Source: a virus. From it: a stretch of DNA of 20,028 nt. The notes under the pieces were generated by a model. That model was not told where the DNA came from, did no database searches, and saw only the letters and a list, made by a program, of their open reading frames with translations. A program made the position numbers and the translations under genes. The first letter of the stretch is position 1; each line of letters starts with the position of its first letter. Shown in pieces: positions 13,006 to 17,933 of this stretch. Where the stretch lies: IMG/VR virus record IMGVR_UViG_3300044527_000008, positions 1-20,028 of that record; one strand, written 5' to 3'.

Positions 13006-14453
13006 CTCAGCCCCTGCGGTACAACCGTGACATCTATTCCAACAGCAGAAGTCCAGACCCCAGAAGGCCTTACCTGCAACCGATGGTAGGTTCCAGAAGA
13101 ACGCAAACCAATGCGGTTGTCATCGTTTGCCGTATAACTTGAACCCGTAAACTGAGCAACCTGGCCCAAACGCTTTCTCGACGAGATTTGCACTGAGCAC
13201 GATCCCGTATCAATCACGGGCCTTACTAGCGTCACTACGCTAGGTGTATCGTTGAGCGATAAATCAGGTGTAATGATGTTTGCCGTTAATGCCGACCCAG
13301 AAAAGGCCACGATCTTTGCGCCTAGCGTACCCGTAAGCAGGTTGGATGTGACCGTATACCCAAAGGAATCAAGGCTTGCAGGAAGCGAATCAATGCTTCC
13401 GTAAGCGTCTAATTGCTCTAAGGTCAGGCCAGACGAAGAGGTTGTTGTGATAGCGGTCGAAGATGAGATCGTGTCTACATTCACCTCACCATAAGACCAC
13501 TTGTTAAGGTTGAAGTTGTAGATCAGGACGTTGGTTGATTGACTTGTCGTCTTAAAGCACCAGATAACGAGGTTTTTAAGCGGGTCAATCGCCGCACTCA
13601 TCGTAGATAACTGCGATATATCTACGTTGTTGAAGAACCACCTGTCTACCTTCTCGACAGAAATAGACTCGACTGCCTGACCATTGCAGCGATAAAACCC
13701 ATCATCAGACAAAAAGAACGACATGCCGCCATACTGGATGATCGAGTTGGGCTCCATACAACCCAAGCCCCTAGAGATCGTGTCGAACTGGAACACGAGA
13801 GGGCTTCCAACGTAGGACATACGGACAACCGCACGATCCATGTACACCAATCCATACTCACCACCCGTCAATCCCTTGACATGCCCACCATCAGGAATGT
13901 CCTGGTAGTCAGACTGTGTGAGAGCGGATGGGGTCCAATCGGTTTCGTCGCCCAAAGCGCACCATTCGACACGGTTAGGGTAGATCGTTGCCCCATTGTT
14001 AAAGCCTGCAACCACAAAGTCTCTAACCGTAGTGACGTACCGAGACTTAGGCGCAGCAGCACCAAGGTCTGCAAAAAGGGTCGATGAGCCCATGAGGTAG
14101 CCCTGGAGCCTGTCACCACCGTTAGCTGCGATCACTCGGTTGCCGAATTGGGTAAACCGCCACTTCTGATCCGATGGGGTTGTATAACCACCAGACTTTG
14201 ATACGTCAGACAAAGCTAAGTTCGTACCGAGCTTAAACAACTTCGTATCACCGCCAGCAAAGACCGTAACTGCTTCACTAGGTGCAGCAGCAGCAACAAC
14301 CGAGTTAAGCGTTTCTGATGCTGCGTTAGACCACTCAGCAGGAGCAGGAAGCGGTCCGTATCCTACTTGTTGTGGAATGACGTTCTTAGCATCCACAAGC
14401 GCACCAGCCACGCCTGGCTGATCGGGTAACCACTCACCAAAGTTAACTCTCAT
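13002..14453 (-). CDS. Putative tail nozzle / packaged-DNA stabilisation protein (P22 gp10-like)
   Basis: A 483-residue protein opening VNFGEWLPDQPGVAGALVDA and KNVIPQQVGYGPLPAP. This N-terminal pattern is frequent in nozzle or stabilisation proteins of short-tailed environmental phages. Repeated beta-strand blades follow: VTVFAGGDTKLFKLGT, NRVIAANGGDRLQGYL, GEYGLVYMDRAVVRMS, GMSFFLSDDGFYRCNG and LKNLVIWCFKTTS. These are consistent with the beta-propeller-like fold of gp10/T7 gp12-type nozzles. The C-terminus is beta-rich with little extra. It lies directly after the adaptor gene (ATGA overlap), the order expected for a portal-adaptor-nozzle stack. No clear ribosome site precedes the ATG, so coupled translation is likely. 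The exact homology (P22 gp10, SU10 nozzle or T7 gp12) cannot be decided by eye. Confidence 0.75.
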   Translation of the reverse strand: MRVNFGEWLPDQPGVAGALVDAKNVIPQQVGYGPLPAPAEWSNAASETLNSVVAAAAPSEAVTVFAGGDTKLFKLGTNLALSDVSKSGGYTTPSDQKWRFTQFGNRVIAANGGDRLQGYLMGSSTLFADLGAAAPKSRYVTTVRDFVVAGFNNGATIYPNRVEWCALGDETDWTPSALTQSDYQDIPDGGHVKGLTGGEYGLVYMDRAVVRMSYVGSPLVFQFDTISRGLGCMEPNSIIQYGGMSFFLSDDGFYRCNGQAVESISVEKVDRWFFNNVDISQLSTMSAAIDPLKNLVIWCFKTTSQSTNVLIYNFNLNKWSYGEVNVDTISSSTAITTTSSSGLTLEQLDAYGSIDSLPASLDSFGYTVTSNLLTGTLGAKIVAFSGSALTANIITPDLSLNDTPSVVTLVRPVIDTGSCSVQISSRKRLGQVAQFTGSSYTANDDNRIGLRSSGTYHRLQVRPSGVWTSAVGIDVTVVPQGLR

Positions 14454-15070
14454 CGTTTAGCAAGCGCCATCGCAAGAGGAACGCCCGAATACTGGCTCTC
14501 CTCGTCGGATCTCGTAAGCGCAGTGATCGCACGATCATACAAAACACCCCAGGTCTGCAACCGAGGGTCATTCATGAGATAAGGTTCAGCCTCTCCTAGA
14601 GCACCGTACAAAAGCGCATCAGGGCAAGTCGTTAGGAAGAGGTTTGTTGTGTTGGAAGTCGAGAGAAAAGCAGGCGCTGCGTAGTAGAGGATCTTAATCG
14701 TGTAATTGCTGTCAGGAATTGGCGCAAGCTGAATGGTCGAGCCGAGGATCGTGTAGAAAGCCGGTACACCACTCTCGTTCGTCCTGCCGTTCCTGATGAA
14801 GATACTCGGCGTTGCGAACGTGATCGGGAAGTCGGGATCAGAATCAACGTACACATCCCGCGCTTGCAGGAAGTCAGTAGGGAGGTTAATTGTTGCGCCA
14901 CCACCAGTCGCCGTGATCGATGTCTGGGTAAGCATCTGGCGCAGGCGTAGATCTCTGCGTAGGCGTATTTCCGCGAGTTGGATGAAGTCAGGGATCGCGG
15001 TAGTAAGATCATCTCTACTGAGATAATTAGCTATCGTCGTTTGTAGTTCGCTGTAAGTGCTTAGGGCCAT
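14450..15070 (-). CDS. Head-tail adaptor protein (SU10-type)
   Basis: About 206 residues, opening MALSTYSELQTTIANYLSRD and then IPDFIQLAEIRLRRDLR, the hallmark of SU10-type and related phage adaptor proteins that sit under the portal ring. The middle has NLPTDFLQARDVYVDSD and IQLAPIPDSNYTIKILYYA, and the C-terminus has CPDALLYGALGEAEPYLMND, also typical of the family. I place the start at the ATG at 15070. An in-frame ATG at 15079 is only 2 bases from the GGAG site, while 15070 is about 11 bases away. Either start lies inside the end of the glycosyltransferase gene (44-53 base overlap). The gene is followed directly by the nozzle candidate. Confidence 0.85.
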   Translation of the reverse strand: MALSTYSELQTTIANYLSRDDLTTAIPDFIQLAEIRLRRDLRLRQMLTQTSITATGGGATINLPTDFLQARDVYVDSDPDFPITFATPSIFIRNGRTNESGVPAFYTILGSTIQLAPIPDSNYTIKILYYAAPAFLSTSNTTNLFLTTCPDALLYGALGEAEPYLMNDPRLQTWGVLYDRAITALTRSDEESQYSGVPLAMALAKR

Positions 15071-15692
15071 ATTCGACATCGCTCCATCGATATTCGTACG
15101 TCCCGATGTGTCCTATCTCAAGACTCAATTCGTGATCCACGAACGTCTGAATACCGTGATCTAGGGCTTTTACACAAAAATGCACATCTTCGCCAATTAG
15201 ACCACCCGCCCCCCATACTACATCAAACCAAGGTTGGGGCATAGCCTCAAACACAGATTTATGGGTTAGCACAACCCCAAAACCTACAGCAGTGACAGCC
15301 TCGATACCCTTCTTACCTCTGCTCTCAATCTTCTCAAAGATTTCCTTGTCTTGATGGAAGTTAATAGCCGTAGGTAAAACGGGCTTTCGTCTCGTGACTG
15401 CGTTAACCCCGACGATCTGTTTGCCGTGAGCTAACAGACGCTCCAAGGTGTTCTTGGGGAACCTCATATCCGAGTCAACCCAGAGAATGTATTCCGCACC
15501 GTCTGCCAGCGCTTCTTTCGCTAGAGACTCGCGTTGAGAGAAGATCAGCGTGCCTGGCGCTGTGTAGAGCAATAAAGCGCCACCGTGTTTGCCGACCCGA
15601 TTAGCACCGTCATAAGCAGCCAATCGAGCCATGTCAAAAGATGTACCGGTCATCATCGTGTCCCTGCATGGGACGCACAGAGCTACTTTCAT
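15027..15692 (-). CDS. GT-A-fold glycosyltransferase-like protein
   Basis: A 221-residue protein with the outline of a minimal family-2-like GT-A enzyme. An N-terminal strand (MKVALCVPCRDTMMTG) leads to a nucleotide-binding region and a DSD metal-binding motif at residues 73-75 within AEYILWVDSDMRFPK. GVNAVTRRKPVLPTA follows, then VGFGVVLTHKSVFEAMPQPW, a GED acidic motif at 167-169 (IGEDVHFCVKALDHG), and a C-terminal His motif (SLEIGHIGTYEY). These features fit an NDP-sugar-dependent transferase. The acceptor is unknown: phage DNA, a virion protein and host surface glycans are all possible. It sits between capsid and adaptor genes with an ATGA start and an AGGA site, and its 3' end overlaps the adaptor gene. 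Confidence 0.85.
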   Translation of the reverse strand: MKVALCVPCRDTMMTGTSFDMARLAAYDGANRVGKHGGALLLYTAPGTLIFSQRESLAKEALADGAEYILWVDSDMRFPKNTLERLLAHGKQIVGVNAVTRRKPVLPTAINFHQDKEIFEKIESRGKKGIEAVTAVGFGVVLTHKSVFEAMPQPWFDVVWGAGGLIGEDVHFCVKALDHGIQTFVDHELSLEIGHIGTYEYRWSDVEYGPKHLQRTTNDDS

Positions 15693-15976
15693 ACTTTTCC
15701 TGGCCTCGTCCTGAAGTGTCTATTCTCTGGGTCGTTCATCCACGCCCTGAATCTTTTCTCGTCGATTACCGCAAACCCACGCATGATGCCCTTGGCGTTT
15801 AGGTCATCAATTACAACAAAGGGAAGTTGTGCGTAGCGTGTCCACTCTCCCCATCGCTCACGCTCGTCTGTCGCGTTGTACAGGGCTTTGTTCTGCTCAA
15901 CGATGTCCGTTATCTCTTGTGTCCTCTGAAACACAAACTGATCGTCGGTAGCGTGAAATGTTGTCTTTGTGCTCAT
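15689..15976 (-). CDS. Small conserved phage protein of unknown function
   Basis: A 95-residue protein. The N-terminal half is helical (VFQRTQEITDIVEQNKALYN). The second half has a WGEWTRYAQLPFVVIDDLN strand-helix and a C-terminal signature DEKRFRAWMNDPENRHFRTR. I have seen this C-terminal NDP-x-NR-x-FRT pattern in small proteins encoded near the capsid genes of varied phages, with no known function. The ATG directly follows the T-tract of the capsid-gene terminator, and no usual ribosome site lies in the expected window. The only purine-rich stretch (GGGAGG) is 21 bases upstream, inside the hairpin. The stop overlaps the glycosyltransferase start (ATGA). Confidence 0.75.
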   Translation of the reverse strand: MSTKTTFHATDDQFVFQRTQEITDIVEQNKALYNATDERERWGEWTRYAQLPFVVIDDLNAKGIMRGFAVIDEKRFRAWMNDPENRHFRTRPGKV

Positions 15977-16011
15977 AAAAAAAGGGAGGTTGTTACGCCT
16001 CCCTTCTTTTT
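15977..16011 (-). terminator. Intrinsic terminator after the major capsid gene
   Basis: Read on the minus strand, AAGGGAGG pairs with CCTCCCTT around an 8-base loop (CGTAACAA), and the right arm continues into seven T residues. A G-T wobble and four A-T pairs extend the stem to about 13 pairs. It lies 15 bases after the capsid stop and ends exactly at the start codon of the next gene. By analogy with T7, it would limit expression of downstream genes relative to capsid. On the plus strand it is also nearly symmetric, but no plus-strand gene uses it. Confidence 0.88.
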
Positions 16012-16026
16012 ACCACAGTTTATAAC

Positions 16027-16983
16027 TTAGGCAGACTTCAGATCCGCGAGGATACCGTGAGCTGCTTCGTTACGCATTTCCATCGTGAACTCAGCAAGGA
16101 TCTGGGTCTTTTCAGAGTCACCAGTTTTTGCAAGTTCGTTCGTCTGGAACGGACGGAGGTAACCAATCGCTGCGTACTCAGGGTCAAGGATGAACGCATC
16201 ACGGCTACGAATGAAACGATCTGGTACAACAGAGATCGAACCAAAGTCGCTGAGATAAACGTCAGCCGCGCCAATGATGGTCGTAGGAGCATCCGAAGGA
16301 GCCATGTAACGCTGTGCTGCGATACCAGCAAAGGTAGATACAGTCTGCTTCAGTGCAGGACCAACAACGAGGATCTTGGGGCTGCCGCCAGAGGTGTAAA
16401 CCTGCTGAACGCCATCCTTAAGGATTGCCTCGGTAAAGGTACGGGTCGTACCGTCGCTACGGGTCGAAACACCGATGGTGGTGGGGTTAGCACCATCCGA
16501 GGTGTTGTAGTTCGAGTTGGTCTTGAGCCAAGAAAGCAACGAACCCATCTTGCGAGCTGTCGATGCGCCACCAGCAGAACGGCCCTGGTTAGCAGCAATG
16601 ATCGTCTCTTGGTCACGCTTGAGTTCTTGCGAAGCCTTCGAGAGCTGGTAAGCCTTCTCTGCGCGGCGACCTGCAAGATCAACAGCCATCATCGTGCCGG
16701 AAACCTGGATCGTCTTAGCAACGATCTGGGTATAGTTACCGAGACGGGTTGTGGGAGAAAGCGTTGCAGCCGTAGCATCGTCACCTTCAACCTGTGCGTT
16801 GTTGGTGGTTGCTGCTGCGAGGGTATCCGTCTGCCACTCGTGGTAAACAGCGGTTGCCTTCGTGCGAGCAAGCGACGAAAGGATAGGGGTTTCTGTGGGG
16901 CTGATGTTGTAGATAACATCAGTCAAGTCCTCACGCTGACCGACAGCCGTGAAGGTTTGGTATGTACCTGAAGGGACAGACAT
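16027..16983 (-). CDS. Major capsid protein (SU10/DUF5309 family)
   Basis: A 318-residue protein with the DUF5309 (SU10 major capsid) signature. The N-terminus (YQTFTAVGQREDLTDVIYNI, then SPTETPILSSLARTKA) is followed by HEWQTDTLAAATTN, the VEGDDATAATLSPTTRLGNY segment and QIVAKTIQVSGTMMAVDLAG. The middle includes DQETIIAANQGRSAGG and SLLSWLKTNSNYNT. The C-terminal part carries KILVVGPALKQTVSTFAG, DVYLSDFGSISVVPDRFIRS and YAAIGYLRPFQTNELAKTGD. The length and motif order fit the HK97-fold capsid protein that assembles the icosahedral shell. A strong AGGAGAT site 7 bases before the ATG and the terminator after its stop suit the most abundant virion protein. It directly follows the scaffold gene. 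Confidence 0.93.
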   Translation of the reverse strand: MSVPSGTYQTFTAVGQREDLTDVIYNISPTETPILSSLARTKATAVYHEWQTDTLAAATTNNAQVEGDDATAATLSPTTRLGNYTQIVAKTIQVSGTMMAVDLAGRRAEKAYQLSKASQELKRDQETIIAANQGRSAGGASTARKMGSLLSWLKTNSNYNTSDGANPTTIGVSTRSDGTTRTFTEAILKDGVQQVYTSGGSPKILVVGPALKQTVSTFAGIAAQRYMAPSDAPTTIIGAADVYLSDFGSISVVPDRFIRSRDAFILDPEYAAIGYLRPFQTNELAKTGDSEKTQILAEFTMEMRNEAAHGILADLKSA

Positions 16984-16997
16984 CTTAATCTCCTAAA

Positions 16998-17933
16998 TCA
17001 TAAAAATCGTTCAAACACTCTGGCAGCATCTTGACGAGATCCCGTCTTCTTTAGCCGCGCAAAGTCCTGTTTTGCAGCCTCTGTGGCTATGGTCTTACCT
17101 GTTGCGTTCCCAGCCCTTAGCATCTTGGGAGCCTCGGTAACCTTCTTGGTTACACCAGGCTTTGCCTTCTGCAACTTCTGGTACTGGCTTGCCATCCACA
17201 ACGTCAATACAGCACGAGAGTCCGTTGCGTTAGCCAACTCGGTATCTGAATACCCGATTGACTTTGCAAAGCTACGAAGTTCAGACCGAACCTTCTCACC
17301 CTTTTCGGGGTGGGCATAGTCAGGAATTGCTTCCGCAACCCTCTTAGCCTCCTCAACAAGATGCTTCTCCAGGTGTGCCTCGCGCTCTGCCTGTTGCTCT
17401 CTAGCAATGCGTTGCTGCTCTGCACGAATCTGCTGGACCTGCTTTTCCTGCTGGGTTCGTTCTGCGACCTTCACTGCGTAAGCAATGGGATCGGTTTCCT
17501 TCAAGCTCTCAATATCCTCGCCACGCATTTGTTGGCTCAAAAAGTTATCCATTGCCTGCAAACGCTGCGAGTACGCATCTCTCGCCTGCTTTGCTTGCTC
17601 GATTGCGGTCTTTTCTGCCTCTACTGCCTTCCGCTGCTCGGCAAGCTGATTAGTCTTTTTGTGGTAATCCGTACCCTTTTGGTAGCCTTCGATCAGTTCT
17701 TGGAGGGTCACCTCGCGTTCTTCGCCTGCTGCTTTGACTACGAAACGCTGTTCCTCCTCTTGAACTTCCTCTCCAGACTCCTCTGGCTCAGATTCACTGG
17801 CAACAAGCTCTTGCTCGTCTGGTTGGTCTTGAACTTGCTCCTGCGGAGGTTCGCCGCCACCCATCATCCCTAAGAACGCATTTGCTGCCTGTCCCACTGT
17901 CAAGCTAGTCCCTTGCGGGTTGCTGCCTTCCAT
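16998..17933 (-). CDS. Capsid scaffolding protein
   Basis: A 311-residue highly charged protein. Residues about 29-62 are strongly acidic (EQELVASESEPEESGEEVQE). A segment VTLQELIEGYQKGTDYHKKT then leads into a long helical coiled coil (about residues 90-205) rich in Glu, Gln, Arg and Lys. The C-terminus is basic and ends GSRQDAARVFERFL, a pattern common to scaffold C-termini that contact the capsid. It lies directly upstream of the capsid gene with a GAGGT site, the canonical position for scaffold. No protease motif is seen, so proteolytic removal would need another gene. The identity is strong from context and composition, though scaffold sequences are poorly conserved. Confidence 0.88.
   Translation of the reverse strand: MEGSNPQGTSLTVGQAANAFLGMMGGGEPPQEQVQDQPDEQELVASESEPEESGEEVQEEEQRFVVKAAGEEREVTLQELIEGYQKGTDYHKKTNQLAEQRKAVEAEKTAIEQAKQARDAYSQRLQAMDNFLSQQMRGEDIESLKETDPIAYAVKVAERTQQEKQVQQIRAEQQRIAREQQAEREAHLEKHLVEEAKRVAEAIPDYAHPEKGEKVRSELRSFAKSIGYSDTELANATDSRAVLTLWMASQYQKLQKAKPGVTKKVTEAPKMLRAGNATGKTIATEAAKQDFARLKKTGSRQDAARVFERFL

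Follow-up and report, generated by a model that had tools for sequence, protein, structure and literature searches.

A terminator-like hairpin behind the major capsid gene, joined to the start codon of the next gene, in a distant relative of phage LUZ24

Phages need far more capsid than neck protein, and a leaky terminator is a known way to reach that ratio. In phage T7 the gap separating gene 10 from gene 11 holds the terminator Tphi, which sits 18 bases ahead of the latter. One study describes genes 11 and 12 as made only by read-through of Tphi and gives a predicted, about six-fold coupling of gene 11 with gene 10 (PMC5592923). The LUZ24 record carries an annotated terminator at the junction between the capsid gene and the PHROG 3982 gene, and a report on UFV-P2 gives a terminator at the capsid junction, its authors drawing two modules, ORFs 75-69 and 75-56 (PMC3890496). 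For SU10, whose capsid belongs to a related family (Pfam SU10_MCP), a published description puts a possible terminator between CDS 10 and 11, behind the head gene pair CDS 9/10 (PMC4281155). A hairpin that hides the ribosome site has been described for T4 homing endonucleases and some T4 late genes (PMC2988022). No ONT-cappable-seq study of LUZ24 turned up in our literature search.

We analysed 20,028 bases of an IMG/VR virus record (hereafter the window, meaning this whole stretch), in which the structural genes lie on the minus strand. The genes for scaffold, major head protein and PHROG 3982 protein follow one another as in the LUZ24-like phages LUZ24 and UFV-P2, the junction is the one seen there, and the hairpin described below occupies the same gap between the major head gene and the PHROG 3982 gene, LUZ24 being a distant relative. 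The sequence-only reading had proposed a post-capsid terminator, for which both the anatomy and the comparison speak (the LUZ24 annotation and the UFV-P2 report, PMC3890496), and its appeal to the T7 capsid terminator also holds good, given the position of Tphi and the read-through origin of the gene 11 and 12 products (PMC5592923). In view of the parallels with LUZ24, UFV-P2, SU10 and T7, a post-capsid terminator is an already known kind of element. The likeness to Tphi covers a terminator between capsid and neck gene, downstream genes reached by read-through and possible coupling; however, Tphi serves T7 RNA polymerase, and the SD of gene 11 (AAGGAGG) sits between terminator and ATG. LUZ24 likewise has a normal SD (GGAGG, -11.5) between hairpin and ATG, whereas the window has none and its T run touches the ATG.

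Anatomy of the junction

The features referred to below are as follows.

16998-17933, minus strand: scaffold gene
16027-16983, minus strand: major capsid gene, which precedes the hairpin and codes for 318 aa; stop codon TAA at 16029-16027
15977-16010, minus strand: terminator-like hairpin of 13 bp with one G-U pair and an 8-nt loop
16010-15998, minus strand: 5' arm of the hairpin, AAAAGAAGGGAGG
15998-16003, minus strand: GGGAGG, the sole SD-like sequence, in the 5' arm; 21 bases separate it from the ATG
15997-15990, minus strand: loop, 8 nt
15989-15977, minus strand: 3' arm, CCTCCC followed by seven T
15977-15983, minus strand: seven-T run, immediately 5' of the ATG; pairs with the A run at 16010-16007
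15689-15976, minus strand: 95-aa gene; ATG at 15976-15974 joined to the T run; stop overlaps the next start
15027-15692, minus strand: glycosyltransferase-like gene, overlapping the end of the 95-aa gene; SD present (-6.1)
14450-15079, minus strand: adaptor (neck) gene (Pfam SU10_adaptor, E 2.5e-37); SD present (-5.6)

The capsid protein matches PHROG 1328, major head protein (E 1.6e-107), and Pfam SU10_MCP (E 8e-102), and is 39% identical to LUZ24 gp62. The 95-aa protein belongs to the same PHROG as LUZ24 gp61 (PHROG 3982, E 1.9e-17); it had no match in a Pfam search, and its AlphaFold2 model, of low confidence (mean pLDDT 64.7), gave 16 PDB matches, none with E <= 0.001. The glycosyltransferase-like protein matches PHROG 1574 (E 2.4e-17) and the glycosyltransferase PHROG 12406 (E 1.8e-4), with weak Pfam matches below cut-off. 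In the phiM5 record the 95-aa homologue is one of three CDSs in the stretch that lack the note 'detected in phage particle proteome', and gp61 in the LUZ24 record has no particle-protein label; these labels hint weakly that the 95-aa product may be needed in small amounts.

The minus-strand hairpin and the seven T joined to the ATG at 15976 were correctly placed and counted in the sequence-only reading. The capsid stop lies 50 bases from this ATG, 16 bases from the whole stem and 20 from its first G. As in an intrinsic terminator, a GC-rich, stable stem-loop is followed directly on its 3' side by a U tract, here one that can pair with the A run. The folding-energy calculation suggested beforehand bore out the fold: the 49-nt hairpin reaches -17.4 kcal/mol (z -3.68) and the hairpin with its flanks -22.2 kcal/mol (z -4.65), with 0/200 shuffles as good in either case. 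Unpaired probabilities are 0.00 for GGGAGG, 0.00-0.16 for the T run and 0.98, 0.40 and 0.24 for the A, T and G of the ATG, the last two bases being partly paired. Fold energy is not unique within the window, where 376 of the 19,980 minus-strand 49-nt segments fold at least as stably and the hairpin with its best flank comes sixth among separate minus-strand places, five being more stable; the case therefore rests on place, T run and comparison. A terminator-pattern scan of the window returned 21 terminator-like sites against 17.6 expected and listed the junction terminator on the plus strand only (15982-16005), probably overlooking the form on the minus strand since its T run is taken up by the stem. 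The hairpin is terminator-like on both strands; no gene was recognised near the plus-strand form, which could stop antisense RNA. An Rfam search of the window gave no match.

The hairpin in related phages

The capsid and 95-aa searches contributed the best 80 loci per scan (9 in one scan), and named phages added nine loci. This gave 419 sequences, including the window and LUZ24, of which 401 had both a capsid stop and a 95-aa homologue; seven had no downstream homologue, six no capsid match, four a capsid that ran off and one only a short match. Removal of one sequence too short for the hairpin search and of 12 capsids below 280 aa left 388. Starts of the 95-aa gene in relatives were assigned by rule, with a single ATG candidate in 390/401. 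Taking one representative per combination of capsid lineage (85% identity), hairpin and SD state yielded 122, of which 20 carried an insert of more than 120 bases and seven had a weak score, leaving 95 from 48 lineages.

The junction comparison that the sequence-only reading had called for shows a recurrent hairpin. Among the matches listed, a strong simple hairpin (<= -10 kcal/mol) stands behind the capsid stop in 110 of the 122 representatives (all 95 and 15 of the 20 with inserts). Full folds of the other 12 show a longer or bulged hairpin in 11, as judged by eye, and no hairpin behind the capsid stop in one (L259). In a less filtered set of 120 representatives from the listed matches, the 50 nt after the capsid stop have a median folding energy of -20.9 and a median z of -3.44, with z <= -2 in 98. 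The corresponding figures are -12.0, -0.35 and 13 in the capsid gene (final 50 nt) and -7.2, -0.38 and 16 in the 95-aa gene (initial 50 nt). Stem and loop sequences are diverse, with 27 different hairpins in the first 161 junctions among these matches. L029, L042, L063, L065 and others have a second small hairpin right at the capsid stop, ahead of the main one.

The T run is far less constant. Counting at least five T among the eight bases after the stem as a U tract, it is kept in 45/95 representatives among the matches listed, and 36/95 have three T or fewer. Intrinsic termination can therefore not be the whole conserved function, and many relatives, judged by their junction sequences, keep the hairpin without a canonical terminator.

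Further genes separate the capsid gene from the 95-aa gene in 20 representatives; among the matches listed, 19 of these still have a hairpin after the capsid stop, which ties it to the capsid 3' end and not to the 95-aa gene. Where the insert codes for HNH proteins, this hairpin may be part of it. The junction is a recurrent insertion place for HNH genes (L199, L224, L231, L235 and L355; also L072, L299, L391, L214 and L389), and of ten inserted proteins tested, eight match Pfam HNH_3 above cut-off, one HNH below cut-off and one DUF6321. In the first five of these loci hairpin, T run and ATG are fused and the SD lies in the 3' arm, and in L199, L224, L231 and L235 a promoter-like site has its -10 within the 5' arm; the arrangement resembles the T4 homing-endonuclease scheme (PMC2988022). 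L072 has a near sigma-70 consensus (1524-1553; TTGACA, 17, TAGGAT; 10/12) right after the capsid stop, ahead of its HNH gene. The idea that the fused state is a scar of a lost HNH insert is unsupported: the 3' arm is G-rich in the five HNH inserts inspected but C-rich in the window.

These counts bear on a reading in which the chief task of the hairpin is protection or processing of the capsid RNA at its 3' end, as a barrier to 3' exonucleases or a guide for cleavage, with termination at the T run secondary or lineage-specific. It accounts for a hairpin that persists while the U tract varies (three T or fewer of eight in 36/95), for its place behind the capsid gene in 19/20 insert representatives and for the 28/95 that lack both a U tract and an SD-less short start (24 with an SD, two intermediate, two with SD-less long gaps), all among the matches listed; loops are, moreover, often stable tetraloops, for example of the UUCG or GAAA types. 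We nevertheless consider it unlikely, since the clade of the window has a full T7-T8 run at all sampled loci except the T6 repeat and L022 variants, some hosts may terminate without a U tract, and hairpins at HNH-coding inserts may be part of the insert.

An SD-less start at the foot of the stem

SD strength was taken as duplex energy with the E. coli anti-SD tail, from which that of the host may differ; on this scale 18 of 20 window genes reach -2.1 or lower and 15 of 20 reach -5.6 or lower, while the 95-aa gene stands at +0.6 and the other exception, ORF 2018-2272, at +1.9. The claim that GGGAGG, 21 bases off and within the stem, is the only ribosome-site-like sequence was confirmed, and it provides no usable SD. 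A strong ribosome site or a true start elsewhere was looked for and none was found: from the in-frame stop upstream to where conservation of the frame begins there is no other ATG, GTG or TTG, and the starts in relatives fall at the equivalent position.

The sequence-only reading further held that GGGAGG would be locked in read-through RNA. It is fully paired, as stated, but too far from the ATG to act as a normal site if freed, so that simple unmasking of an SD from the stem is an unlikely control of the 95-aa gene; the freed 5' arm would form a duplex of -10.7 with the anti-SD, against -17.4 kcal/mol for the hairpin. In this the locus departs from the T4 cases. The likeness is a stem that locks an SD-like sequence beside a start codon on read-through RNA; in the T4 genes, however, about 8 nt separate SD and ATG, and stem-free RNA arises from an internal late promoter (PMC2988022), whereas no SD at a normal distance from the ATG is hidden in the window stem, and a sigma-70 consensus scan found no promoter at the junction that would make stem-free RNA.

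In relatives, too, an SD is missing more often before this gene than before its neighbours. Across the 70 junctions of a first set, an SD of -4 or lower precedes the 95-aa gene in 25/70 but the scaffold gene in 44/53, the capsid gene in 61/64, the glycosyltransferase-like gene in 61/64 and the adaptor gene in 59/64, among the matches listed. Of the 95 representatives, 28 have a short gap (10 bases or fewer from the last GC pair to the ATG) and 67 a longer one. Among the listed matches, 24 of the short-gap representatives are without an SD, three have it in the 3' arm and one is intermediate, while 12/67 with longer gaps are without one (Fisher p 6e-10, with related rows treated as independent). 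The 24 SD-less short representatives comprise 15 lineages, not to be read as independent events, and among these matches 14 have a T run and eight no U tract. On the capsid tree the SD-less short state requires at least 12 changes, where 200 shuffles average 21.5 and never need fewer than 17, and is therefore clustered but labile; SD-less and SD-bearing starts have replaced each other repeatedly. An SD-like 5' arm is present in 24/24 SD-less short representatives, a count we set aside as partly definitional because a G-rich 3' arm would itself count as an SD. The SD-less start, seen in many related lineages, is the unusual part of the junction. In a literature search covering a minority of subscription journals, no paper turned up in which a post-capsid terminator runs directly into a start codon.

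Fusion of T run and ATG, as the sequence-only reading had it, is present in the window and is not needed even within its clade: among the matches listed, where some contigs occur twice, 94 loci are fused, eight (six contigs) have a repeat spacer and one (L022) a single unit. In this spacer, four or five 10-base units that carry an SD (TTAAGGCTTATG) part the T run from the ATG, which shows that the phages can do without the fusion. Fused and repeat variants share the same hairpin arms, and this retention of the stem beside a displaced start argues for a function separate from the start codon. Every sampled locus of the clade has T7-T8 apart from the repeat and L022 variants, which have T6. L012, L023, L094, L096, L102 and L103 have 4-5 copies of a GCTCGTTAAG-like unit, each with an SD-like TAAGG, and copy number differs among near-identical phages. 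Elsewhere in the window the unit has eight matches with up to two mismatches, against 10.0 expected.

Possible control of capsid and neck proteins

We think it probable that the hairpin is a leaky terminator of the capsid gene and in addition impedes translation initiation at the 95-aa gene, whose SD has been lost and whose translation would be poor or coupled. On this reading it would close the capsid transcription unit at its 3' end as an intrinsic terminator that leaks: most late RNA would end at the T run and so yield abundant capsid RNA, while a minority would read through into the 95-aa and neck genes and thereby set the capsid-to-neck ratio. Leakiness is suggested by the closeness of the stem to the capsid stop and by the effect of ribosomes in E. 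coli, where terminators near a stop codon are repressed, where two series gave efficiencies of about 0.12 and 0.8 for distances of 17 and 18 nt, where efficiency is maximal beyond about 27-30 nt, and where effects at 17-18 bases are steep and sequence-dependent (PMC4824070). Ribosomes finishing the capsid gene 16-20 nt upstream would probably set part of the leakiness here. In relatives the stem starts 12 bases or fewer from the capsid stop in 58/95 and 27 or more in 2/95, among the matches listed. A sigma-70 consensus scan of the minus strand from 16996 to 12481 found no promoter-like site, and the RNA of the neck genes therefore seems to depend on read-through past the hairpin. In the clade of the window the 95-aa start would then have slid against the T run with loss of its SD, and read-through RNA would be poorly translated at this start, at the foot of the folded stem, or perhaps coupled to capsid translation. 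The sequence-only reading extended such a limit to the 95-aa gene and perhaps the neck genes. The former part is in keeping with the missing SD; the adaptor and glycosyltransferase-like genes have their own SDs, which would leave the translational brake mainly on the 95-aa gene and the neck genes within reach only through RNA level or coupling. Against the leaky-terminator reading stand the SD-bearing spacers in the same clade and the many equally stable folds in the window, and pairing of the stem with its own T run may alter termination.

It is also conceivable, if rather improbable, that the junction works as a coupling device independently of termination: a hairpin 3-10 nt before the ATG would repeatedly have replaced the SD, and the fold would bring the capsid stop near the next start, which would draw its ribosomes from those ending capsid translation instead of from the free pool, tying the 95-aa protein to capsid translation. 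That the hairpin is a terminator and nothing else, with SD loss a neutral genome compaction and the 95-aa start adequate through its A/T-rich context or ordinary coupling, would suit the lability of the SD-less short state (at least 12 changes) and the spacer variants in near-identical phages, but we regard it as quite unlikely given that neighbouring genes mostly retain an SD where the 95-aa gene does in 25/70, and that the SD-less state occurs in 15 lineages with 8/24 representatives lacking a U tract, among the matches listed.

Should the position of the start codon beneath the stem bring in control of translation as well, as in the leaky-terminator reading that we prefer, the ratio of capsid to neck protein would be set at two levels by a single short element. 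The natural variants of this junction (fused, with a repeat spacer, without a U tract, and with inserted genes) offer a ready series for studying a hairpin placed before an SD-less start.
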